From a virus, in IMG/VR virus record IMGVR_UViG_3300032156_000025, positions 1-44,474 of that record: a stretch of 44,474 nt of DNA, one strand, 5' to 3'. A model generated the notes under the pieces. It searched no databases and was not told the DNA's origin. It saw only the letters and a list, made by a program, of their open reading frames with translations. Shown here piece by piece: positions 4,105-43,337 of this stretch. Both the position numbers and the translations under genes were made by a program. Within the stretch, counting starts at the first letter, position 1; each line of letters starts with the position of its first letter.

Positions 4105-4767
4105 ATGAAAACGCTGACCATCACCGCCGCCGACGTGAAGGATGGCAAGTACGTCGGCACGGAAGACGTTTCTGACTTCCAGGGCCACATCGAGATCGAA
4201 GCCAATCTCGGATGGGTGCGATTCGACGGACACGTGTCCGTCAGCGGCCGCATTTTTGCGGCCGCCGGTTCGGGCATCGAGGCCGATGAGAGCATCGAGG
4301 CCGGTTGGGGCATCAAGGCCGGTTCGGGCATCAAGGCCGGTTGGGGCATCAAGGCCGGTTGGGGCATCGAGGCCGATGAGAGCATCGAGGCCGGTTGGGG
4401 CATCAAGGCCGGTTGGGGCATCGAGGCCGGTTGGGGCATCAAGGCCGGTTGGGGCATCAAGGCCGGTGAGAGCATCGAGGCCGGTTGGGGCATCCTCGCG
4501 GGATTCTGGATCTCTTGCAAGAAGACGCTCACCTTCCGCCTTCGTCTTTTCGCCGGTGCCTGCTACTGGCGCGAGATCACCGAAGAAGAGAAGACCATCA
4601 CCTGCGGGAAACTGGTCGGCGGTGAGGTCTGCTACGGAATCGTCAAAGAGACCGGGATCGAGGCGCCGCCACTCGTAAGTACCCAAATCGTCTTTAGCGA
4701 ACCCGATCTCGCTACCCGTGTCGCTGAACTAGAGCGCCGCGTCCGGGCGATGGAGACCGCCGCCTAG
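4105..4767 (+). CDS. Hexapeptide-repeat beta-solenoid protein
   Basis: This 220-residue protein has a central block (about residues 55-132) of tandem six-residue repeats of the form AGWGIK, AGWGIE or ADESIE. The period and the Gly/Ile spacing are those of a beta-solenoid. The N-terminal 50 residues already look like irregular solenoid rungs (LTITAADVKDGKYV). After the repeats comes a distinctive tail (RLFAGACYWR, then an acidic/Cys segment) and a short C-terminal coiled coil (ATRVAELERRVRAME). I recall proteins with similar AGWGI repeats and an RIFAG tail from other phages; their function is not known to me. It is followed by a sigma factor whose GTG overlaps its stop. GGAGAG at 4095-4100 supports the ATG. 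Confidence 0.85.
   Translation: MKTLTITAADVKDGKYVGTEDVSDFQGHIEIEANLGWVRFDGHVSVSGRIFAAAGSGIEADESIEAGWGIKAGSGIKAGWGIKAGWGIEADESIEAGWGIKAGWGIEAGWGIKAGWGIKAGESIEAGWGILAGFWISCKKTLTFRLRLFAGACYWREITEEEKTITCGKLVGGEVCYGIVKETGIEAPPLVSTQIVFSEPDLATRVAELERRVRAMETAA
4267..4482 (+). repeat. Twelve tandem 18-bp units inside the solenoid gene
   Basis: Twelve contiguous 18-bp units based on GGTTSGGGCATCRAGGCC encode two tripeptide rungs each, and a thirteenth unit (4483-4500) has diverged. The units are nearly identical at DNA level, with a recurrent variant starting GATGAGAGC at units 2 and 7 and a related GGTGAGAGC at unit 12. Such an array can change length by slippage or recombination without breaking the frame. 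Confidence 0.95.
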
Positions 4768-9660: not shown

Positions 9661-9878
9661 ACGGTAACGAGATCGAGTGCCCGAGTTGTCATCGCATCAC
9701 GACTACGGGTCTTTGTGGGTGTCCAGCGACGCGAGAGCCGTGGCCGCCGCGGGGCACGATAGAGGGCGACATGGCCGAACTGCGCCGCCAGCTCGCGATC
9801 ATGTTCGCGCCGATCATCGCAATCTGTGAACGCCTAGTGCGAGTCCTCAATCGCGCCCTCACCCGTCGCCGCGCATGA
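9657..9878 (+). CDS. Small Cys-ribbon protein with amphipathic C-terminus
   Basis: This 73-residue protein has CPSC and CGC near its N-terminus (possible single zinc site) and a hydrophobic helix (LAIMFAPIIAICERLVRVL) that could attach to the membrane. ATG overlaps the previous stop and its own stop overlaps the methyltransferase start. The function is unknown. Confidence 0.65.
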   Translation: MNGNEIECPSCHRITTTGLCGCPATREPWPPRGTIEGDMAELRRQLAIMFAPIIAICERLVRVLNRALTRRRA

Positions 9879-10465
9879 ACAACGCGAGCCATCCGATCCG
9901 CGACTACGGCGACGTGCGAGATCTACTGCAGCATCTCCCCCATCGCTTCGACGGCGACTCCTACATGGTCTCCGACATCTTCACGAGCCGCTTCGAGATC
10001 CTGCGCTCGCTCGACCCGCAGCCTCGGAGCGTCTACGAGTTCGGCGCCCTTTTCGGCTACTTCCTGGTGACGGCGGTCGCCGCCTGCCCCTCGATCAAGC
10101 GCGTTGGCTGGTGCGACAACGAGGTCGACATCCCGCGCTCGAACTACTACTGCGACGAGAACGTCTTCTCGGTCAGACCGGAGGTGAAGCGGCAATGCTG
10201 CTTCCGCCGCGAGGACGCGCCGACAGGCGAGACTTGGGACGTCGTCTCGGTCGATAGCGGGCACTCGTTCGAGTGCTGCCTTGCCGACCTCGAGGCGGCG
10301 GAGAAGATGAGACCGCGCTTGATCTTCGTCGACGACTACACGGCAGACGGGCATGCCGAGAACATCGGGCCGGCGGTCGCACGCTACCTCGAGGAGAGCG
10401 CTTTCCCCTGGGAGCTCGAGCTGCTCGAGACGGTCAACGGACTCGCCGTTCTGCGCCGCTCTTGA
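9875..10465 (+). CDS. SAM-dependent methyltransferase-like protein
   Basis: This 196-residue protein has the order of a class I methyltransferase. A motif I-like strand-loop (VYEFGALFGYFLVTAV, about residues 49-64) is followed by an acidic residue after the next strand (VGWCDNE), WDVVSVDSGHSFE as motif III/IV, and a final strand IFVDDYT. This resembles the Methyltransf_24 group that acts on sugars or small molecules rather than DNA. It could modify a virion or host glycan together with the glycosyltransferase protein at 20078-23308, but that link is inference. It is the last gene of the replication/regulation operon and is followed by a promoter and a terminator-like hairpin. Confidence 0.7.
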   Translation: MNNASHPIRDYGDVRDLLQHLPHRFDGDSYMVSDIFTSRFEILRSLDPQPRSVYEFGALFGYFLVTAVAACPSIKRVGWCDNEVDIPRSNYYCDENVFSVRPEVKRQCCFRREDAPTGETWDVVSVDSGHSFECCLADLEAAEKMRPRLIFVDDYTADGHAENIGPAVARYLEESAFPWELELLETVNGLAVLRRS

Positions 10466-10621: not shown

Positions 10622-11137
10622 ATGTCCAGGTTACGAATCTCGCCGTCGCTGATCGTCGCCTGCCTAGCGCTTTTCATCTCACTCACGGGAGCCGGCGTCG
10701 CAGTCGTCAGCGCCTTGCCGAGAAACAGCGTCGGCACGGCTCAGCTCAAGGCGAACGCTGTTAATTCGAGCAAGGTCAAGGATGGCTCGCTCGGGGCGGT
10801 TGACTTCGCCAGTGGGCAGCTGCCAGCCGGTCCCACCGGGCCGAAGGGCGACGCCGCCGCGACCAACGCCGTTCTGCGCACTGACAACGGCGGCGGTGCC
10901 GCTTCTCGTGGCAGTGTCTCAACCGTCACGGTGCGCTGCGCTGAGGGCGAGCGTGCAATCGGGGGCGGGTTCGCGGTACAGGCCGAGAATCAGCGTACCC
11001 CGGTGAGCGTGAAGGCGAACAAGCCTAGCGGCGCTCCTCCTGATCGATGGGTAGTGGCAATCCAGAACATCTCGGACACAGCCATCGAGGATGGTTCGAT
11101 CGTCGCTGAAGCGTACGTCGTCTGCGTCTCGCCCTAA
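10622..11137 (+). CDS. Host-like exported protein with collagen-like stretch
   Basis: This 171-residue protein has an N-terminal hydrophobic anchor or signal (LIVACLALFISLTGAGVAVV). It continues with an NSVGTAQLKANAVNSSKVKDG-type segment, a short collagen-like run (GPTGPKGD) and a C-terminal beta domain (TVTVRCAEGERAIGGGF, ending YVVCVSP) with a Cys pair that could form a disulfide. This exact layout is widespread in chromosomes of Thermoleophilia and is not a known phage structural type. I therefore read it as a moron acquired from the host, possibly altering the lysogen surface. It has its own flanking terminator and sits just before the packaging genes. Confidence 0.8.
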   Translation: MSRLRISPSLIVACLALFISLTGAGVAVVSALPRNSVGTAQLKANAVNSSKVKDGSLGAVDFASGQLPAGPTGPKGDAAATNAVLRTDNGGGAASRGSVSTVTVRCAEGERAIGGGFAVQAENQRTPVSVKANKPSGAPPDRWVVAIQNISDTAIEDGSIVAEAYVVCVSP

Positions 11138-17810: not shown

Positions 17811-18233
17811 ATGGCGTTTTCGGATACGGGCCTGCTGTCTCTCAAGGCGGCGTCGGCCATCGTCCAGTGGGCGCCCGTCGGACCTCTCGTCGCTGGTTCT
17901 GAACTCGACGAGACGATCATCCGCGCGGGTTCCTGGAACGTGCTCCCGGTCGGGGTCAATACCGCGACCCTCGCGACCTACGGCCTCCCGGCTGCAGTCG
18001 CGATCAAGGGGCAACGTGCTTACGGGATCGCCGCAGCTTCGCTCGGCGCTCTCACCCCGGTTGCCGTCGGCTCGACCAACGGTCGCCTGATCCCGGTCTG
18101 CGCGTCGGGTATCACGACGCACGCCGGATCGGGCGGAGACGTAGCGTCACGCTACGCAGTCGGTATCGCTCTCAAGAGCGCCGTCGACGGGGACTACTTC
18201 CCCATCATCGTCGACCCGCAGCTCGTCCTCTGA
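17811..18233 (+). CDS. Head decoration protein-like
   Basis: This 140-residue protein lies between scaffold and major capsid genes, where decoration or stabilisation proteins (lambda D / HDPD family) are found. It is beta-rich and small, with alternating Val/Ala/Gly strands (AIVQWAPVGPLVAGSELDE, TPVAVGSTNGRLIPVCASG) and no charged helices. The ending FPIIVDPQLVL resembles small capsid stabilisers. A strong AAGGAG precedes the ATG, inside a hairpin. High expression would be expected. The identification rests on position, size and composition. Confidence 0.7.
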   Translation: MAFSDTGLLSLKAASAIVQWAPVGPLVAGSELDETIIRAGSWNVLPVGVNTATLATYGLPAAVAIKGQRAYGIAAASLGALTPVAVGSTNGRLIPVCASGITTHAGSGGDVASRYAVGIALKSAVDGDYFPIIVDPQLVL

Positions 18234-18316: not shown

Positions 18317-19276
18317 ATGCCTTCGCAGACTGTGGGGAACGTCCACGTCAACGGACCCCTCACGAATCTCGCGCGGCTCTACACGCCGCGGGGCTTCATC
18401 GCTGATCGGGTCTGCCCGCAGATCCCGGTCGTGAAGGAGTCCGATGTCTTCTACGTCTTCGATCAGGGGCCGTTCTTCTCGGTCGAAGTCGAAGACCTCG
18501 TCCCGGATAGGGGCAAGCCGCGCAAGGTCGAGTTCTCGCACTCGACCGAGCAGTACCTCTGCCAGAAGCGCGAGCTGGCCTGGGACATCTCCGACCGCGA
18601 GCGGGCGAACGCCGACTCGCAACTCAACCTCGAGCGGAACAAGCAGAACGGAACCCTCGGGCTCCTGCACCTGCGCCGCGAGAAGCGGGTTGCAGCCGCG
18701 CTTCGCAAGGTCGCGAACGGCGGAGGTCTGAACCTCGGCGCGTCCGCAGCCGTCAAGTGGGACGGCGCTGCCGTGACCTACGCCGGCATCGCGGCCGACG
18801 TGATGATCGGGAAGGAAGCGATGCGTCAGGCGATCGGCGCGGTGCCGAACGTCATTGTGATCCCCGCGGCCGTCGCCGCCGGGATGCACAAGTCGCTCCT
18901 CTATCAGGTGCTGCAGTACACCTACGGTGACGCTACAGCGCGCAAGATGATCGAGGAGGCCTTCCCGTCCCTCCCGCCCGTCATGTTCGGGATGGAAGTC
19001 GTCGTCGGCGGCATGATCTACAACTCCGCCGTCGAGGGGCAGACCGCTTCCTACTCCGATGTCTGGGGTGAGGCTGTCCGCCTGCTCTACGTGACGAACG
19101 GGCCGGCGCTCGAGGAACCCTCCTGCGCCTACACGCTCGTCAACCGGCCGCTCCAGACCCGCCAATGGCGGGACGAGGAGGCCGAGGTCGACTCCTACGC
19201 GGTCGGATGGATCATCGACGACCCGAAGGTAGTCGCACCCGACGCCGGGTACGAGATCAACGACTGTCTGACGTGA
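18317..19276 (+). CDS. Major capsid protein
   Basis: This 319-residue protein is the presumed HK97-fold shell subunit. It follows protease/scaffold and decoration genes and has an expected size after N-terminal trimming. Features include an N-terminal arm (LTNLARLYTPRGFIADRVCPQIPV), a mid domain with PNVIVIPAAVAAGMHKSLLYQVLQYTYGD, and a C-terminal beta segment (SYAVGWIIDDPKVVAPDAGYEI) like capsid proteins of Mu-like heads. Ribosome site GGAGG lies at 18307-18311. Its stop overlaps the next gene (GTGA). The exact capsid family is not certain from sequence alone. Confidence 0.87.
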   Translation: MPSQTVGNVHVNGPLTNLARLYTPRGFIADRVCPQIPVVKESDVFYVFDQGPFFSVEVEDLVPDRGKPRKVEFSHSTEQYLCQKRELAWDISDRERANADSQLNLERNKQNGTLGLLHLRREKRVAAALRKVANGGGLNLGASAAVKWDGAAVTYAGIAADVMIGKEAMRQAIGAVPNVIVIPAAVAAGMHKSLLYQVLQYTYGDATARKMIEEAFPSLPPVMFGMEVVVGGMIYNSAVEGQTASYSDVWGEAVRLLYVTNGPALEEPSCAYTLVNRPLQTRQWRDEEAEVDSYAVGWIIDDPKVVAPDAGYEINDCLT

Positions 19277-19629
19277 TCTTGATGAGCGCCAACGCAAACA
19301 AGACCAACAAGGAGCTGATCGCCGAGCTCGAAGCGCTCGGCGTCAGCATCCCGAAGAGGGCGAATAAGGCCACGCTGCTCGAACTCCTGCGAGGGAGCGA
19401 CAGCGGCGCGGCTTCCAGCGACGTCGCTACAACGGCTGCAGCTGAGCCTTCATCGTGCGACCTAATCGGGTCGGACGGTCGGCGGATCCTACGCGGCGTC
19501 TCCGACTCCGGCTGCCGCGATCTTCAGAAGAAGATCCTCTCGTCGACGGGCGAGAAGACGACGATCGTGACAGCGAGTGGGATCCTGATCGGCGCTGCAA
19601 GCGAGCCCGGAGTGGAGGACGGGGACTAA
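19273..19629 (+). CDS. Small HeH/SAP-motif protein after the capsid gene
   Basis: This 118-residue protein has an N-terminal helix-extended loop-helix motif (NKTNKELIAELEALGVSIPK then ANKATLLELL), a fold of SAP/HeH domains that bind DNA or phage proteins. Its C-terminal part is Ser/Ala-rich with an IGSDGRRILRGVSDSGCRDLQ stretch. GTG 19273 overlaps the capsid stop; ATG 19282 is the alternative. In many siphophages a HeH protein lies at this point and may take part in head completion. It is followed by the structured gap 19647-19756. Confidence 0.75.
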   Translation: MILMSANANKTNKELIAELEALGVSIPKRANKATLLELLRGSDSGAASSDVATTAAAEPSSCDLIGSDGRRILRGVSDSGCRDLQKKILSSTGEKTTIVTASGILIGAASEPGVEDGD

Positions 19630-19646: not shown

Positions 19647-19677
19647 AGGGCGAGGGGACTGCCACACCCCTCGCCCT
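19647..19677 (+). terminator. Strong 11-bp hairpin after the capsid genes
   Basis: AGGGCGAGGGG (19647-19657) pairs perfectly with CCCCTCGCCCT (19667-19677) around nine bases. Only two T follow, so it is not a textbook terminator. It may reduce read-through into the glycosyltransferase region or protect the 3' end of the abundant capsid transcript. Confidence 0.5.
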
Positions 19678-19696
19678 TACCTCCCGGGGGAGGCTC

Positions 19697-19756
19697 GCGA
19701 TGCGGCGTCGCTGGGCGTTCCGCCTGGTGGGCTCCGCGCCCATCGGCCCGCATCGC
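19697..19756 (+). promoter_or_regulatory. Two-tier hairpin in the leader of the glycosyltransferase operon
   Basis: GCGATGCGG (19697-19705) pairs with CCGCATCGC (19748-19756), and inside it TGGGCG pairs with CGCCCA. Together with the preceding hairpins (including CTCCC/GGGAG at 19681-19692) the 167-base gap is largely structured. It ends with AGGAGCCCACCG directly before ATG 19797. Confidence 0.5.
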
Positions 19757-19796
19757 CAGCTTCCTCGCTTCACCCCTACGCAAAAGGAGCCCACCG

Positions 19797-20081
19797 ATGA
19801 CCCCTTGTGGAACCTGCATGGTTGATTCAACTCTTACGACCGATCAGGGCGCATTCTCAGTCCCCGTCGCGAACCGCCTCTGGCGGTTGCCTCTGCCCGC
19901 GAGGTGGATCACCTTGGAGACGTGGGCTGGCAACCCCGCCTACCGTGCCCTCAACGGAGGTTTTGGGAACTGCAACACCGAGTTTGGCGACCGCGAGAGC
20001 GTTTTCATTATCTGCGGCCTTGGTGGTATCGGCTGCAACGTCAACCACGCGGCAATCAAGCGGGCGGGCGAGCAGGCATGA
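19797..20081 (+). CDS. Small Cys/Gly-rich protein coupled to the glycosyltransferase
   Basis: This 94-residue protein begins at an ATG directly after the AGGAGCCCACCG motif. It has CGTC near the N-terminus, aromatic residues in the middle (LWRLPLPARWITLETW) and a Gly/Asn/Cys-rich end (GGFGNCNTE, IICGLGGIGCNVN). It is not a recognised family. Its stop overlaps the start of the 1076-aa glycosyltransferase (ATGA). It could be a capsid-associated protein or the glycan acceptor; that is conjecture from coupling and composition. Confidence 0.65.
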   Translation: MTPCGTCMVDSTLTTDQGAFSVPVANRLWRLPLPARWITLETWAGNPAYRALNGGFGNCNTEFGDRESVFIICGLGGIGCNVNHAAIKRAGEQA

Positions 20082-23000
20082 CCAAGATCGCCGCCTGCCT
20101 CATCGTCAAAGACTCCGCCGAGATCATCTCGAAGTGTCTCGACTCGATCCGCCCGTACGTCGACGAGATCAACATCTACGACACCGGCTCGACCGACGGG
20201 ACGCTAGAGCTGCTGGAGAAGCTGAGCAAGCAGAAGTCACTCCTCTTCCAAGAGGGAGAGATGGTCTGTCCGAGCAAGTACGAGCCGGGCGACCCTGAGG
20301 CGAAACTAGCCGAGGACCAAGTTCTAGTTCCGCTCGCTCCGATCCGAGTCGAGCGCGGAGAGTGGCGAGAAGACTTCGGCTGGGCACGCGAGCAGTCGTT
20401 CGCGATGGTCTCCGACGACGTCGGCTGGTTCCTCTGGCTCGACGACGACGACGTCATCGTAGGAGCCGAGAACCTTCGGCAGATGGTCGCTCTCGCACAG
20501 CCCGACCTCGATGGGTTCGTGATGTTCTACGACTACGCCCGCGACGAGTCCGGGACGTGCGTCTGTCAGCTCTGGCGGGAGCGTCTGCTCCGTCGCTCGT
20601 CGGGCTTCTACTGGAAGAACCCCGTCCACGAGGTACTCGTCCCGCCGGAGGATACGGCGCCGACGATGCAGTTCGTCCCTCCGCAAGTCATCCGCTACAT
20701 TCACGATCGCCCGGCCGAACGCTACGACGCGGGCCGAAACCTCGCGATCCTACTCCGGGAAAAGGAGAAAGCGGAAGCGGAGGGACGCCCTATCGAACCC
20801 CGCACGCTCGCCTATCTCGGCACGGAGCACATGGCGAAGATGAACTGGGGCGAAGCAGCGCTCTACCTGAACGCCTACGTCGAGCGCCCGGACGCGCGCT
20901 GGGGCGACGAGCGAGCACAGGTGCATCACAAGCTCGCGACGTGCCTGCGCTTCCTCGACAACCCGCTCGGCTCGATCGAGGTCGAGATCGCAGCGGTGAA
21001 GGAGCGGCACGACTGGGCCGAGAACTACGTCGGCCTCGCGCAGTCTTACTCAATGCTCGGCAACTGGTCGGCGGCGCTCCACTACGCACAAGAGGCGCAG
21101 AAGTTCGGGATGCCGCAGTCGTCCTTGATCCTCAACCCGCTCGAGTTCTCGCTCGTCCCTCTACTCGTCGAAGCAGAGGCGCTCGCGCAGCTCGGTCAGG
21201 CGGAGGAGGCGCGGCGCGCGATCGCAAAACTCGTCCAGATCTTCCCAGCGTACGAGATGGCGCAGGCGAAGGCGGCAGACCTCGACCGGATGCTTGCCGA
21301 GAACGACATCGTCAACGCCGTGCTCACGCTGAGGGAAGTGCTCGTCCGACACGACGAGAACGCGAAGGCCTGGCAGCTGATGGAGTCCGTCCCCTACCTC
21401 GTCGCCGAGCGCCCGGAGATAGTCATGGCGCGGGCCGAGCAGCGAGAGATGGTCGCTCACCTACGTCAGCCGGAGGAGTACCGGCGCTGGTACGTCGACG
21501 AGCCGAAGGAGTCGACCGTCGCCGACGAACTCGTCGAGAAGGTCGACGAGTGCATCGAGCGCGCGGCGTATCTCGTCGAGGGGCTCGAAGCGCAGGAGAA
21601 GGAGCTCGGCAGGAAGCCTCGCGTCCTCGACCTGGGTTGCAACGACTACTGGCTGGAGTGCTTCCTCTGGAAGCGGCTCGGATTGAAGGCAGACGGGGTC
21701 GAGCTGAACCGCCAGGCGTACGAGAAGGGACTCGAGCGCAAGCGGACGTTCGGCGCTCCCGGGAGGCTCGTCCACGGCGATCTCTACGACGCGCCGAAGT
21801 TCTTCAAGCGCCATCACTACGACGCGGTCATCCTGTTCGAGGTCTTCGAGCACCTACCCGATCCGGAGTCGGCGCTCGAGGTCATGCGCGAGATGCTCGC
21901 TCCCGGAGGGCGGATCTATCTGACGACGCCGAACGGAGCCTTCGAGCGCGGACAAATCGAAGCCTGGGCGAAGGTCGAGCGCAAAGGGCACCTACACGCC
22001 TTCCCCGCCTCAACCTTGATCGAGATGCTGATCGCTCGCGGCGAGATCAAAGACTTTCGCGTTCACGCCGGCGGGAGACTCGCCTACGCCTCCTATACGC
22101 CCGGCAAGCGCAAAGGCAAGGTCATCCTCTACGACGGCCCAGGCTGGGAGGAGTGGAGCCCGGAGTCGGTCAACAAAGGCGGGCTCGGCGGATCCGAGAC
22201 GGCGATGATCTACCTCGCCGTCGGTCTCGCGCAGGCGGGCTACGAAGTGAAGGTCTACGCAGGCGCGGTGCCTGGCTTCTACGCTGGCTCGCTCTGGCGC
22301 CCGGTCGGAGCCTTCGACCCCTCGGAGGAGTGCGACCTGCTCGTCGTCTCTCGTCGCGCGATCATCTTCGACCTCCCGCTTGCGGCGAAACGCAAGGTGC
22401 TCTGGTGTCACGACCACTCGTACCCGGGGCAGCTGACCGAGAAGCGAATCGAGAACATGGACGCGCTAGTCGTCCTCTCGGAGTGGCAACGCGCCCGATT
22501 CGAGCGCCTCTACCCGACGACGAAGGACAAGCTCGTCATCCGCCGGAACGGCATCGCGCTCGAAGCGCTCGGCGAGCCGAAGTTCGCAAAGGCTGACAAG
22601 CCGTGGTCTGAGCGGGAGCCTCGCTGCATCTACTCGTCGAGCGCCGATCGAGGCCTCGACGTCCTGCTCGGGATCTGGCCGATGATTCGGGAGCAGGTTC
22701 CCGAAGCCGAGCTGCATATCTTCTACGGCTGGAAGACCTACGACGCGGTTGCGAAGATCAACCCCGCGCTCTACGCCTACAAGGCGAAGGTGCTCGAGTT
22801 GCTCGAGGCGGCAGGAGGAGAGGCTGGCGGCGTCTTCATGCGAGGGCGACTCGGACAGGCCGAACTCGCGGCGGAGATGCAGGAGGCCCGGGTACTCGCA
22901 TACCCGACCGCCTTCCTCGAGACGAGCTGCATCTCGGCGATGGAAGCGAAGGCTGCTGGCCTGCCGATCGTCACGTCCGACCTCGGCGCGCTCCACGAGA

Positions 23001-23308
23001 CCGCTGCGGGGCAGACGCTGATCCCCTGGGTCTGGGACGAAGCAGATCGAGCGCTCGCTCTGGAGGGCTTCGACGCTATCGAGTCCGCTCCGGTCAACAA
23101 GACCGCCGGCTACCAGGCCGAGTTCATCGCGAGCGTCGTCCAGCTACTGACGAACGAGGGCGTCTGGAACGATCTCCACGGCCGCGCTCTCGACGGCGCG
23201 ACCGAGAACGCCTGGGAGAAGCGGATCCCGGGCTGGGAGGCTCTAGTGCGTCCGCTAACGAAACCCGCGACTGATAGGTCGCGCCGCCACCTACGCGTCG
23301 CGGTCTAG
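20078..23308 (+). CDS. GT2 - TPR - methyltransferase - GT4 multidomain protein
   Basis: This 1076-residue cytoplasmic protein combines four modules. Residues 1-230 are a family-2 glycosyltransferase: ACLIVKDSA, YDTGSTDGT (34-42) and WLDDDD (about 119-125, the metal-binding DXD region). Residues about 245-420 look like TPR helices. Residues about 510-640 form a class I methyltransferase (VLDLGCND 516-523; LFEVFEHLPDPESAL; APGGRIYLTTPN). From 680 to 1040 is a GT-B family-4 glycosyltransferase (GGLGGSET near 700, RNGI near 823, E948-x7-E956). ATG 20078 overlaps the previous stop. It likely builds and methylates a glycan on a virion protein, since it is embedded between capsid and connector genes. 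The substrate is unknown; altering host surface glycans is the alternative. Confidence 0.88.
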   Translation: MTKIAACLIVKDSAEIISKCLDSIRPYVDEINIYDTGSTDGTLELLEKLSKQKSLLFQEGEMVCPSKYEPGDPEAKLAEDQVLVPLAPIRVERGEWREDFGWAREQSFAMVSDDVGWFLWLDDDDVIVGAENLRQMVALAQPDLDGFVMFYDYARDESGTCVCQLWRERLLRRSSGFYWKNPVHEVLVPPEDTAPTMQFVPPQVIRYIHDRPAERYDAGRNLAILLREKEKAEAEGRPIEPRTLAYLGTEHMAKMNWGEAALYLNAYVERPDARWGDERAQVHHKLATCLRFLDNPLGSIEVEIAAVKERHDWAENYVGLAQSYSMLGNWSAALHYAQEAQKFGMPQSSLILNPLEFSLVPLLVEAEALAQLGQAEEARRAIAKLVQIFPAYEMAQAKAADLDRMLAENDIVNAVLTLREVLVRHDENAKAWQLMESVPYLVAERPEIVMARAEQREMVAHLRQPEEYRRWYVDEPKESTVADELVEKVDECIERAAYLVEGLEAQEKELGRKPRVLDLGCNDYWLECFLWKRLGLKADGVELNRQAYEKGLERKRTFGAPGRLVHGDLYDAPKFFKRHHYDAVILFEVFEHLPDPESALEVMREMLAPGGRIYLTTPNGAFERGQIEAWAKVERKGHLHAFPASTLIEMLIARGEIKDFRVHAGGRLAYASYTPGKRKGKVILYDGPGWEEWSPESVNKGGLGGSETAMIYLAVGLAQAGYEVKVYAGAVPGFYAGSLWRPVGAFDPSEECDLLVVSRRAIIFDLPLAAKRKVLWCHDHSYPGQLTEKRIENMDALVVLSEWQRARFERLYPTTKDKLVIRRNGIALEALGEPKFAKADKPWSEREPRCIYSSSADRGLDVLLGIWPMIREQVPEAELHIFYGWKTYDAVAKINPALYAYKAKVLELLEAAGGEAGGVFMRGRLGQAELAAEMQEARVLAYPTAFLETSCISAMEAKAAGLPIVTSDLGALHETAAGQTLIPWVWDEADRALALEGFDAIESAPVNKTAGYQAEFIASVVQLLTNEGVWNDLHGRALDGATENAWEKRIPGWEALVRPLTKPATDRSRRHLRVAV

Positions 23309-23339: not shown

Positions 23340-23801
23340 GTGTACATAGGCGCCACAGAGTTGAGCCTGATCCTGCCGGCGAACGTCTCGATCGGCACGA
23401 ACACCGCGCCGTGGACGCTCGGCGAGGTCGCGTCGCTGATCTGTGAGGTCTCGGCTGAGATCGACTCGGCGGTCGTCGCCGCGGGCTACGGCATCCCGAT
23501 CCCGCCTACTGCGACCGTCCCCTACGGCTACGTCCAGCGCATCTGCAAGATGGGCGTCGGCTGGCAGGTTCTCCGGACGATCTTCCCCGATCTCGGAGGC
23601 CCGGGCGACAAGACGTCGATCGCATCTGACTATCGGACGGCATACGAAGCAGGGATCAAGGCGATCCGCGAGGGCAAGATGCCCCTACCTGGAGCCTCGA
23701 CCATAGCGCCCGACTCCGGCGCCGTATTGCCGAGAGGTAGGTCAACCTCAGACGCTCCAAGTTCGATCGCGTCGGGCCTCTCGATGAACTGGGAGCCGTA
23801 G
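23340..23801 (+). CDS. Head-tail connector, DUF1320 / Mu gp36-like
   Basis: This 153-residue protein is an adaptor expected below the portal. The N-terminal part has a typical connector layout (TELSLILP, then APWTLGEVASLICEVSAEIDSAVVAAGYGIP) in which a helix with SAEID is followed by a Pro-rich turn, as in Mu gp36. A second helix pair contains VQRICKMGVGWQVLRTIFP. The Ser-rich tail (GRSTSDAPSS) is flexible. GTG 23340 follows a GGAGGAGG ribosome site. Confidence 0.78.
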   Translation: MYIGATELSLILPANVSIGTNTAPWTLGEVASLICEVSAEIDSAVVAAGYGIPIPPTATVPYGYVQRICKMGVGWQVLRTIFPDLGGPGDKTSIASDYRTAYEAGIKAIREGKMPLPGASTIAPDSGAVLPRGRSTSDAPSSIASGLSMNWEP

Positions 23802-23802
23802 G

Positions 23803-24294
23803 ATGGCACGCTCGGTCATGGGCGCCGGCGGAGGCGTCTCTCTCACACTCCGCCCGCCGATCGAGTTCATACAGCGACAGAGCGGAGCGTTCCGCAGGCA
23901 TCTCAGGAACCTTGAGCCGCTCTGGGATCGCTTCAAGCCGATCATGTCGGAGATCGAGTCGAAGCGCTTCGACGAGGAAGGTCCCGGCTGGGCGGCGCTC
24001 AAGGAGTCGACGATCCGCCAGAAGGCGGCGGCAGGCTACCCGCTCGACATTCTGATCCGGACGGGCGATCTGCGCGACTCGCTCGTAGAGGAAGGCCGAG
24101 CTGCGAAGACCTCTGCGATGCAGATGGAGTGGGGATCCGACGTCAGTTATGCGGGCTATCACCAGGACGGCACGCCGAAGATGGCCCAGCGCAAGGTGAT
24201 CGAGATCGAGGACGTCGAAGGGCGTCGCAAGCTCGAGCGGGCGATGGTCGGCTGGATCAACCAGGTCGCCCGCGAGACGTTCGGGAGGATCTAA
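23803..24294 (+). CDS. Virion morphogenesis / tail completion protein (Mu gpG-like)
   Basis: This 163-residue protein resembles the Phage_tail_S / Mu gpG family. It has a helical start (FRRHLRNLEPLWDRF), the signature GPGWAALKESTIRQKAAAG, then LIRTGDLRDSL, a strand with MEWGSDVSYAGYHQDGT, and finally RKVIEIEDVE. Members help join tail to head. The start is one base after the preceding stop, and its own TAA overlaps the next ATG. Confidence 0.82.
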   Translation: MARSVMGAGGGVSLTLRPPIEFIQRQSGAFRRHLRNLEPLWDRFKPIMSEIESKRFDEEGPGWAALKESTIRQKAAAGYPLDILIRTGDLRDSLVEEGRAAKTSAMQMEWGSDVSYAGYHQDGTPKMAQRKVIEIEDVEGRRKLERAMVGWINQVARETFGRI

Positions 24295-42001: not shown

Positions 42002-42174
42002 AGGTCAAAGACCTCATCACAGCCCTGCTCGAAGCGCCGATGGACGCCGAGGTCGCGGTAGCTATCGCGGACGGCGATGAAGACATCACTGGCGCGAAAT
42101 ACACGCCGAGCGCCTTCGGCCCCGGCTGGGTCGAGATTCGGATCGTCGGCGAGTATGTCGAGGTCGAGTCGTGA
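41998..42174 (+). CDS. Small phage protein of the KVKDLI type
   Basis: This 58-residue protein starts at GTG (GTGA overlap on both sides). The layout KVKDLITALLEAPMDAEVAVAIADGDE followed by two strands (VEIRIVGEYVEVE) is a pattern seen in many phage early proteins with no assigned function. It is directly coupled to the SbcD-like gene. Confidence 0.65.
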   Translation: MKVKDLITALLEAPMDAEVAVAIADGDEDITGAKYTPSAFGPGWVEIRIVGEYVEVES

Positions 42175-43337
42175 AGCTCCTCTCGACAGGAGATTGGCAC
42201 GCGGGCGCAGGCCAAGAGTATGGCCGCGAGCCGTGGGATCGTCTCGCTGATCAGGATGCAGTCGCCGACAAGATCGCGGAGATCGCTCGCGAACGCCAGG
42301 TGGACGCCGTCCTCTTCGGCGGTGACGGTGGCGAGCGCCGAAAGCCGACACCGCGCGAGAACCTTCTGCTCGCCCACGCCTTCCGCCGCTTCGCGCCGAT
42401 CCCGGTCATCGCGATCCCCGGCAACCATGACGTGAGTGAGGCGGATGGCCCGTGCTCGCTCGACATCTTCGCGCCGGAGTTGCTCACGCTTCAACGGACT
42501 CCTGGCGTCGTCACAGTCGCCGGCACGTCGATCGCGTGTCTTCCTTGGACTCCTATCTCGCGCCTGGTCGCTGCCCGTGACGGCGGTGACCGTGCACAGA
42601 TCAACCGCGAGGCTGCGGGGCTTCTGATCGACACCGCGCGCGGGCTGCGCGCTCAGTGCGAGGGGCCATGCGTGCTTCTGCTCCACTGGTCGGTCGAGGG
42701 TGGCGTGACGGCCACGGGTGTCGAGACGCTCGCCTTCGCCGAGCCCGTCCTACCGCTCGCCGATCTTGAGGCGCTCGGCTTCGATGCGGTCTTCGCGAGC
42801 CACGTCCACAAGCCGATGGCGATCGCGCCCGGGATCATCCAGGTCGGCTCGCCCATGCCGCTCTCGTTTGGCGAGCCTGGCGATCACGGAGTCTGGATCG
42901 TCGATGTTTCCTTGAACGAAACACACGCCGAGTTCGTGCCGATCGAGTCGCGGCCGTTCGTGACGCTAGATCGCGATTGGAGCGCGATACCTGGGGCCGG
43001 TCTAAGCGGTCCAATGGACATCTTTGATTACGGCGACGATCTTTCAGCATTGCGAGACGCGATCGTCCGCGTCCGCTACACCGCCACCGCCGAGCAGGCC
43101 CGCAGGATCGATCATCGCAAGCTGCGCGACGCTCTCTATGCGGCCGGCGCCCACAAGGTCTATGCGATCGAAGCCTCGATCGAACGGGAGACGCGCGCGC
43201 GAGTGGAAGGCGTCGACGAGACGCTAGGCGAGGCCGCTGCGTTGGACGCTTACATCGAGGCGCAGGGCATCGACACCAGCATGGCCGAGCAGATGCGCGA
43301 GCGGACAGGGCGCTATTTGCAGGAGGCGCGAGCGTGA
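42171..43337 (+). CDS. SbcD-like metallophosphoesterase (nuclease subunit)
   Basis: This 388-residue calcineurin-like nuclease should form the catalytic subunit of an SbcCD/Mre11-Rad50 complex. Metal ligands are visible in order: D8 and H10 (GDWH), D52 (GGDGGE), N85-H86-D87 (GNHD), H172 (LLHWS) and H211-H213 (SHVHK). The second motif lacks the second acidic residue of the usual GDLFD, a small deviation. The C-terminal 130 residues form the capping/SbcC-binding region. GTG 42171 overlaps the previous stop. It should resect DNA ends for RecT, as T4 gp47/gp46 do for UvsX. Confidence 0.9.
   Translation: MKLLSTGDWHAGAGQEYGREPWDRLADQDAVADKIAEIARERQVDAVLFGGDGGERRKPTPRENLLLAHAFRRFAPIPVIAIPGNHDVSEADGPCSLDIFAPELLTLQRTPGVVTVAGTSIACLPWTPISRLVAARDGGDRAQINREAAGLLIDTARGLRAQCEGPCVLLLHWSVEGGVTATGVETLAFAEPVLPLADLEALGFDAVFASHVHKPMAIAPGIIQVGSPMPLSFGEPGDHGVWIVDVSLNETHAEFVPIESRPFVTLDRDWSAIPGAGLSGPMDIFDYGDDLSALRDAIVRVRYTATAEQARRIDHRKLRDALYAAGAHKVYAIEASIERETRARVEGVDETLGEAAALDAYIEAQGIDTSMAEQMRERTGRYLQEARA

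Follow-up and report, generated by a model that had tools for sequence, protein, structure and literature searches.

A few actinobacteriophages are known to have glycosylated capsids, and they use separate genes for this purpose. In the mycobacteriophage Corndog, an O-methyltransferase and three sugar transferases each have a gene of their own in the head operon (PMC4351075), and the capsids of the mycobacteriophages Che8 and Rita are reported to bear glycans (as relayed by PMC11256854). Single-chain designs have been described elsewhere: A064R of the chlorovirus PBCV-1 carries two glycosyltransferases (GTs) and a class I methyltransferase in one chain and finishes the capsid glycan (PMC9614988), and GmaR is a flagellin N-acetylglucosamine transferase with a GT2 domain plus tetratricopeptide repeats (TPRs) (PMC9638930). 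Here we describe a gene of an uncultured phage, the IMG/VR virus contig IMGVR_UViG_3300032156_000025 (positions 1 to 44,474; this whole stretch of 44,474 nucleotides is referred to as the window), whose product joins GT2, TPR, methyltransferase and GT4 modules. What sets this gene apart from the actinobacteriophage systems is that a single conserved polypeptide, encoded at a fixed place after the capsid gene, combines the GTs, a putative acceptor-recognising TPR domain and a methyltransferase; the literature searched contained no paper that describes capsid glycosylation by a GT-methyltransferase fusion of a phage.

Modules and catalytic motifs of the fusion protein

The reading frame at 20078-23308 comprises 1076 uninterrupted codons, and the four-module architecture of its product, proposed in an earlier sequence-only reading of the window, is confirmed. 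The gene and its modules are as follows:

20078..23308, + strand: GT2-TPR-methyltransferase-GT4 fusion protein of 1076 residues, from Pfam, PHROGs, AlphaFold, Foldseek and four-module relatives
20078..20797, + strand: GT2 module of GT-A fold (Pfam PF00535), residues ~1-240, with DTGSTDGT, WLDDDD (the DxD motif) and HE at 184-185
20798..21487, + strand: TPR helical module, residues ~241-470, from weak TPR matches in Pfam, helices in the model and structural matches of SunS/OGT type
21515..22117, + strand: class I S-adenosylmethionine (SAM) methyltransferase module (Methyltransf_23), residues ~480-680, with LDLGCND, GVELN, FEVFEHLPD and TPNGA
22118..23275, + strand: GT4 module of GT-B fold (Glyco_trans_1_4; PimA/MshA structural matches), residues ~681-1066, with GGLGGSET and E948-x7-E956

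Pfam profiles matched Glycos_transf_2 (1.4e-10), Methyltransf_23 at residues 497-655 (6.7e-18) and Glyco_trans_1_4 at residues 858-978 (1e-8), with weak TPR_14/TPR_2 matches in the stretch from GT2 to methyltransferase, whilst PHROG 13126 (beta-1,4-glycosyltransferase) spanned GT2 and TPR together (9.6e-33). The AlphaFold model, computed from an alignment of 31 sequences, reached a mean predicted local distance difference test (pLDDT) of 90.3 and a predicted template modelling score of 0.71, and contained, in this order, a GT-A domain, a series of helices at 220-474, a methyltransferase of Rossmann fold and a domain of GT-B type. Profiles and model therefore agree on four modules in one chain, and both GT folds were found by each approach.

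The active sites are preserved. In GT2, D122/D124/D125 (DxD) and H184/E185 (HE) were invariant across the 31 aligned members, the EX7E pair of GT4 was kept in all aligned four-module members but one (L012, second Glu replaced by Lys), and the methyltransferase motifs LDLG[CAS]ND, GVELN-like, FEVxEHxPD and TPNGA were conserved in the near group of relatives and recognisable further out. The methyltransferase module has the motif I, acidic ribose-binding residue and Rossmann fold of class I SAM enzymes. Catalytic motifs kept intact by selection, as expected of a phage virion glycosylation system, are thus present in the fusion; among the GT motifs of the aligned four-module members, the loss of a catalytic residue that would have spoken against the sequence-only reading occurred in L012 only.

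Foldseek ranked the SunS/ThuS peptide S-glycosyltransferases highest among structures in the PDB, then the TPR-containing protein glycosyltransferases SPINDLY and OGT (O-GlcNAc transferase); the GT4 half matched PimA and MshA, and the best PDB match by sequence was GmaR. As in SunS and GmaR, the fusion has a GT-A domain and a TPR-like helical domain in one chain.

Relatives and linkage to capsid genes

Profile searches of viral contigs recovered 28 proteins, counting that of the window, in which one chain carries GT2, TPR, methyltransferase and GT4 (the 27 other contigs are a lower bound), and 42 with GT2, usually TPR, and GT4 without the methyltransferase, here called two-GT fusions. Full-length relatives shared 50-58% identity, which excludes a chance origin of the fusion. 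These relatives were reached by alignments only, the single sequence P0001 giving no match to the viral contigs. Such a chain had been called unusual, and this holds against isolated phages, as no full-length match occurred in 50,697 phage records, but not among uncultured phages, where it forms a conserved family. Genome contigs yielded just two short GT2 matches, in metagenome-assembled genomes, and no host or prophage was found there.

The gene had been placed between capsid and head-tail connector genes, which the PHROG assignments bear out, with terminase, portal and protease/scaffold genes further upstream:

17811..18233, + strand: 140-residue protein between the protease/scaffold protein and the major capsid protein, with homologues at the equivalent position in relatives; possible decoration protein and alternative acceptor
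18317..19276, + strand: major capsid protein (MCP; phrog_1005, 2.3e-51), the likely acceptor candidate
23340..24294, + strand: 153-residue protein and Neck1/tail-completion protein (the latter phrog_26, 23803-24294), directly downstream of the fusion, and following it in relatives with enough sequence

The 140-residue protein received no name in PHROG and Pfam scans. A search from the capsid side found the four-module gene in 16 of 16 contigs of the window's capsid lineage that have downstream sequence, some of them near-identical (e.g. L006/L009/L125); a seventeenth, L129, ends inside the capsid gene. A head protein lay upstream of the fusion in 13 to 16 of the 16 four-module loci sampled (eight with phrog_4523/133, four with 1005, others with 1650, 1328 and 371) and in at least 27 of 30 sampled two-GT loci (mostly phrog_1328), compared with a major head protein in 3 of 16 upstream proteins of stand-alone GT2 relatives sampled in the same way. 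The GT gene is thus physically tied to virion genes, both in every such lineage contig and across several capsid families. The recurrence of the fusion family behind unrelated capsid families argues for a functional and not merely inherited link to the capsid, with the caveat that the phrog_1328 phages are related to one another.

Taken together, the four folds and their order, the intact motifs, the capsid linkage and the resemblance of the GT2-TPR half to protein glycosyltransferases make virion glycosylation the best reading of this gene. We consider it likely that the fusion glycosylates a virion protein, probably the capsid or a decoration protein, and that it extends and methylates the glycan. 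A single-chain modification enzyme would be produced late, alongside the head proteins. The TPR helices of its SunS/GmaR-like half would grip the virion protein, most likely the MCP or a decoration protein, GT2 would use a host nucleotide sugar to attach the first sugar, the GT4 half would add a second, and the methyltransferase between these halves would methylate the glycan, the outcome being a particle bearing a short methylated glycan. Host nucleotide sugars would be used because the window proteins scanned (part of its genes; this scope applies to all such scans below) included no recognisable enzyme of sugar-nucleotide synthesis. What stands of the virion glycosylation role first proposed is its structural and genomic basis. 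That the acceptor is a virion protein is a likely assignment, the two sugars are presumably added in the order given, and the chances that the methyl group caps a sugar are roughly even.

Several observations weigh against this reading. The absence of a recognised sugar-nucleotide gene is one. Late expression, not the acceptor, could also explain why the fusion gene follows that of the capsid protein. Many of the linked two-GT contigs share the phrog_1328 capsid family and are not independent. The isolates ValentiniPuff and CRP-6, with distantly related capsid proteins of the same kind, have no fusion gene at this place. The gene is accordingly no constant feature of the wider capsid family, nor does the capsid fold require it; it was probably gained in the window's capsid lineage.

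The similarity of the GT4 half to PimA and MshA, which act on host glycolipid or thiol precursors, would suit an enzyme that modifies a host surface polymer or lipid-linked precursor, thereby blocking superinfection or changing the receptor. We judge this improbable: no membrane segment is apparent in the fusion sequence or its model, the GT2-TPR half is of protein-glycosyltransferase type, all 16 contigs keep the gene within the head operon, and the window proteins scanned included no recognised integrase. Glycosylation and methylation of hypermodified phage DNA is extremely improbable. Phage DNA glucosyltransferases do exist, and one DNA alpha-GT appeared at rank 50, far down the viral structural list, but the window proteins scanned included no recognisable base-hydroxylating or nucleotide-modifying enzyme, the gene sits in the head operon, and TPR plus GT2 suits a protein acceptor.

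The GT4-domain tree requires at least 3-4 gains or losses of the methyltransferase module, 42 fusions do without it, and the acceptor is unreadable from class I methyltransferase motifs. All three points would fit a version in which virion glycosylation is right but the module methylates protein, or is a structural spacer, and no methylated sugar is made. This version is unlikely, as the near group shows strict conservation of the SAM-binding motifs, and the same methyltransferase subfamily recurs beside split or two-GT fusions. Within the fetched flanks, a gene of this subfamily neighbours 4 of 42 two-GT loci, directly after the fusion in L019 and L029 and at most 500 bases away in L033 and L039. 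In MW202497 (3472-8678), a GT2-TPR-GT4 gene is split within GT4 by a groEL gene, the methyltransferase gene follows next, and the whole set lies between terminase and portal. As the same parts occur both fused and as neighbouring genes, they appear to serve one shared pathway.

Leader hairpin and other features of the window

Between the capsid region and the fusion gene lie a small open-reading frame (ORF) and a structured leader:

19647..19677, + strand: GC-rich hairpin after the capsid region, terminator-like without a T run
19691..19762, + strand: long leader hairpin, whose apex at 19726-19735, GGTGGGCTCC, is complementary to the Shine-Dalgarno (SD) region below
19786..19795, + strand: SD region GGAGCCCACC of the 94-residue ORF, with 10 nt complementarity to the hairpin apex
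19797..20081, + strand: 94-residue ORF with 5 Cys and 12 Gly, overlapping the fusion start by ATGA and unconserved in relatives

All 14 near-group leaders examined contain a long hairpin (20-40 bp), placed after the capsid region and ahead of the first ribosome site on the enzyme transcript; it lies 139 nt from the start in L004 and 236 nt in L120. In 13 of these leaders (the window, L003, L004, L005, L006, L008, L010, L011, L088, L120, L121, L122 and L126) the apex can form 7-14 contiguous Watson-Crick pairs with the SD of the next ORF, although in L120 the paired site could alternatively belong to a later ORF; L085 has five. Simple shuffles of GC-rich single leaders gave modest scores, and the valid test is cross-permutation of apices and sites: with the own site, duplex energies summed to -334 and run lengths to 129, whereas permuted pairs gave -279 +/- 11.5 and 97 +/- 4.3, respectively, and 0 of 50,000 permutations were as good in either case. 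The four leaders first looked at after the idea was formed gave runs of 14, 9, 11 and 7. Of the 47 gene starts tested within the window, the enzyme-leader site has the longest run; two other starts have runs of 7. Rfam gave no match to the leader. Two-GT phages and distant four-module phages showed no such hairpin, which is therefore not a general companion of the enzyme.

The leader is probably a translational pseudoknot switch, in which pairing of loop and SD would hold down translation of the enzyme, whose gene follows a strongly expressed capsid gene; pseudoknots in the leaders of ribosomal proteins are precedents (PMC10931766). A translational control element at this place, separating an abundant structural protein from its proposed modifying enzyme, would be new. 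A bolder proposal, which we hold only tentatively, is a one-protein assembly line that docks via its TPR helices on freshly synthesised capsid protein and whose output is held far below that of the capsid by the pseudoknot, or tied to a capsid-dependent signal. The combined observations suggest a coating of particles with a methylated sugar made by one RNA-checked protein.

On visual inspection of L010, L088, L008 and L005, a stretch preceding the main hairpin seems to mimic the SD, in the first three as the loop of a first hairpin; it seems that this mimic could compete for the apex as an anti-anti-SD.

The fusion had been described as translationally coupled to the small Cys/Gly-rich ORF. 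Given the ATGA overlap and the good SD site of the ORF, the coupling is real in the window phage, but the ORF does not belong to the conserved unit, as the relatives' contigs compared contain no homologue. These two facts bear in opposite directions on a glycocin-like pair, in which the coupled ORF, with its 5 Cys, would be the substrate of a SunS-like enzyme and become a glycosylated peptide. SunS is the best structural match, yet other phages have unrelated ORFs or none (L011, L121) at that place, leaving the enzyme without the conserved small Cys-rich substrate gene of SunS, and the SunS equivalog model (NCBIfam TIGR04195) scores the fusion at 18.7 bits against a cut-off of 350. We therefore regard this pairing as very improbable.

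A second methyltransferase had been suggested as a possible part of the same glycosylation system:

9875..10465, + strand: separate putative methyltransferase, weakly similar to Methyltransf_24 and optional in the lineage

The similarity is weak (5e-5 at best among three members), its AlphaFold model (pLDDT 51) was too poor for a fold search, and a pattern scan found no close relative. The gene is present in 3 of 6 long near-group records (window, L011, L088), with homologues in 2 of 13 related records, and is at most an accessory to the system.

Other features of the window are noted here. Behind the MCP gene, a small protein (19282-19629) has a C-terminal motif, DLIGSDGRRILR...TGEKTTIV, common to L004, L008, L085 and L088 in an otherwise hypervariable intergenic region. 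SbcC-like (64-1743) and SbcD-like (42171-43337) genes lie at opposite contig ends and would be neighbours on a circle, which suggests that the window is a near-complete, circularly permuted genome. The protein at 4105-4767 has many GWGIKAGWGIEAGESI-type repeats and no PHROG match, and is probably a beta-helix. The protein at 10622-11137, signal-peptide-like with a 'NSVGTAQLKANAVNSSKVKDGSL' pattern, had no counterpart in the ten related records searched; we take it to resemble Thermoleophilia-type actinobacterial proteins, a possible hint to the host.

Comparison with known systems

SunS/ThuS (PDB 7msn, 7msp, 7msk) and Listeria GmaR (PDB 22ao) share with the fusion a GT-A GT2 domain followed by TPR-like helices, and act on protein or peptide acceptors. 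They differ in having neither methyltransferase nor GT4, are not capsid-linked, and show ~14-18% identity in the structural match. The Actinobacillus capsular polysaccharide synthesis multienzyme (PDB 8qoy) is likewise a large multi-domain glycan enzyme, but it serves capsule synthesis and its weak whole-chain match has a TM of only about 0.25. A064R also unites two GT domains and a methyltransferase in one chain, at 638 residues, without TPR, with other GT families, in the order GT-GT-MT against GT2-TPR-MT-GT4 in the fusion, and in a eukaryotic algal virus; the likeness is one of design, not shown homology.

Closer in genomic setting, Corndog/cluster O and Che8-type phages encode GTs and an O-methyltransferase with their head genes, as the window phage does, but as separate genes at another operon position, and are likened to the fusion by description. 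The Manatee Spring phages MW202718/MW202524 carry homologous modules (39% identity in GT4, 25% in GT2-TPR) in a GT2-TPR-GT4 fusion annotated beta4glucosyltransferase, also directly behind the MCP region, but with no methyltransferase in the chain and an unrelated capsid family (phrog_1328). A compact protein-glycosylating enzyme of this kind would allow acceptor choice and glycan order to be tested with one purified protein, and, if the assembly line is real, phages would have in it a first example of virion glycan methylation by a single chain under RNA throttling.

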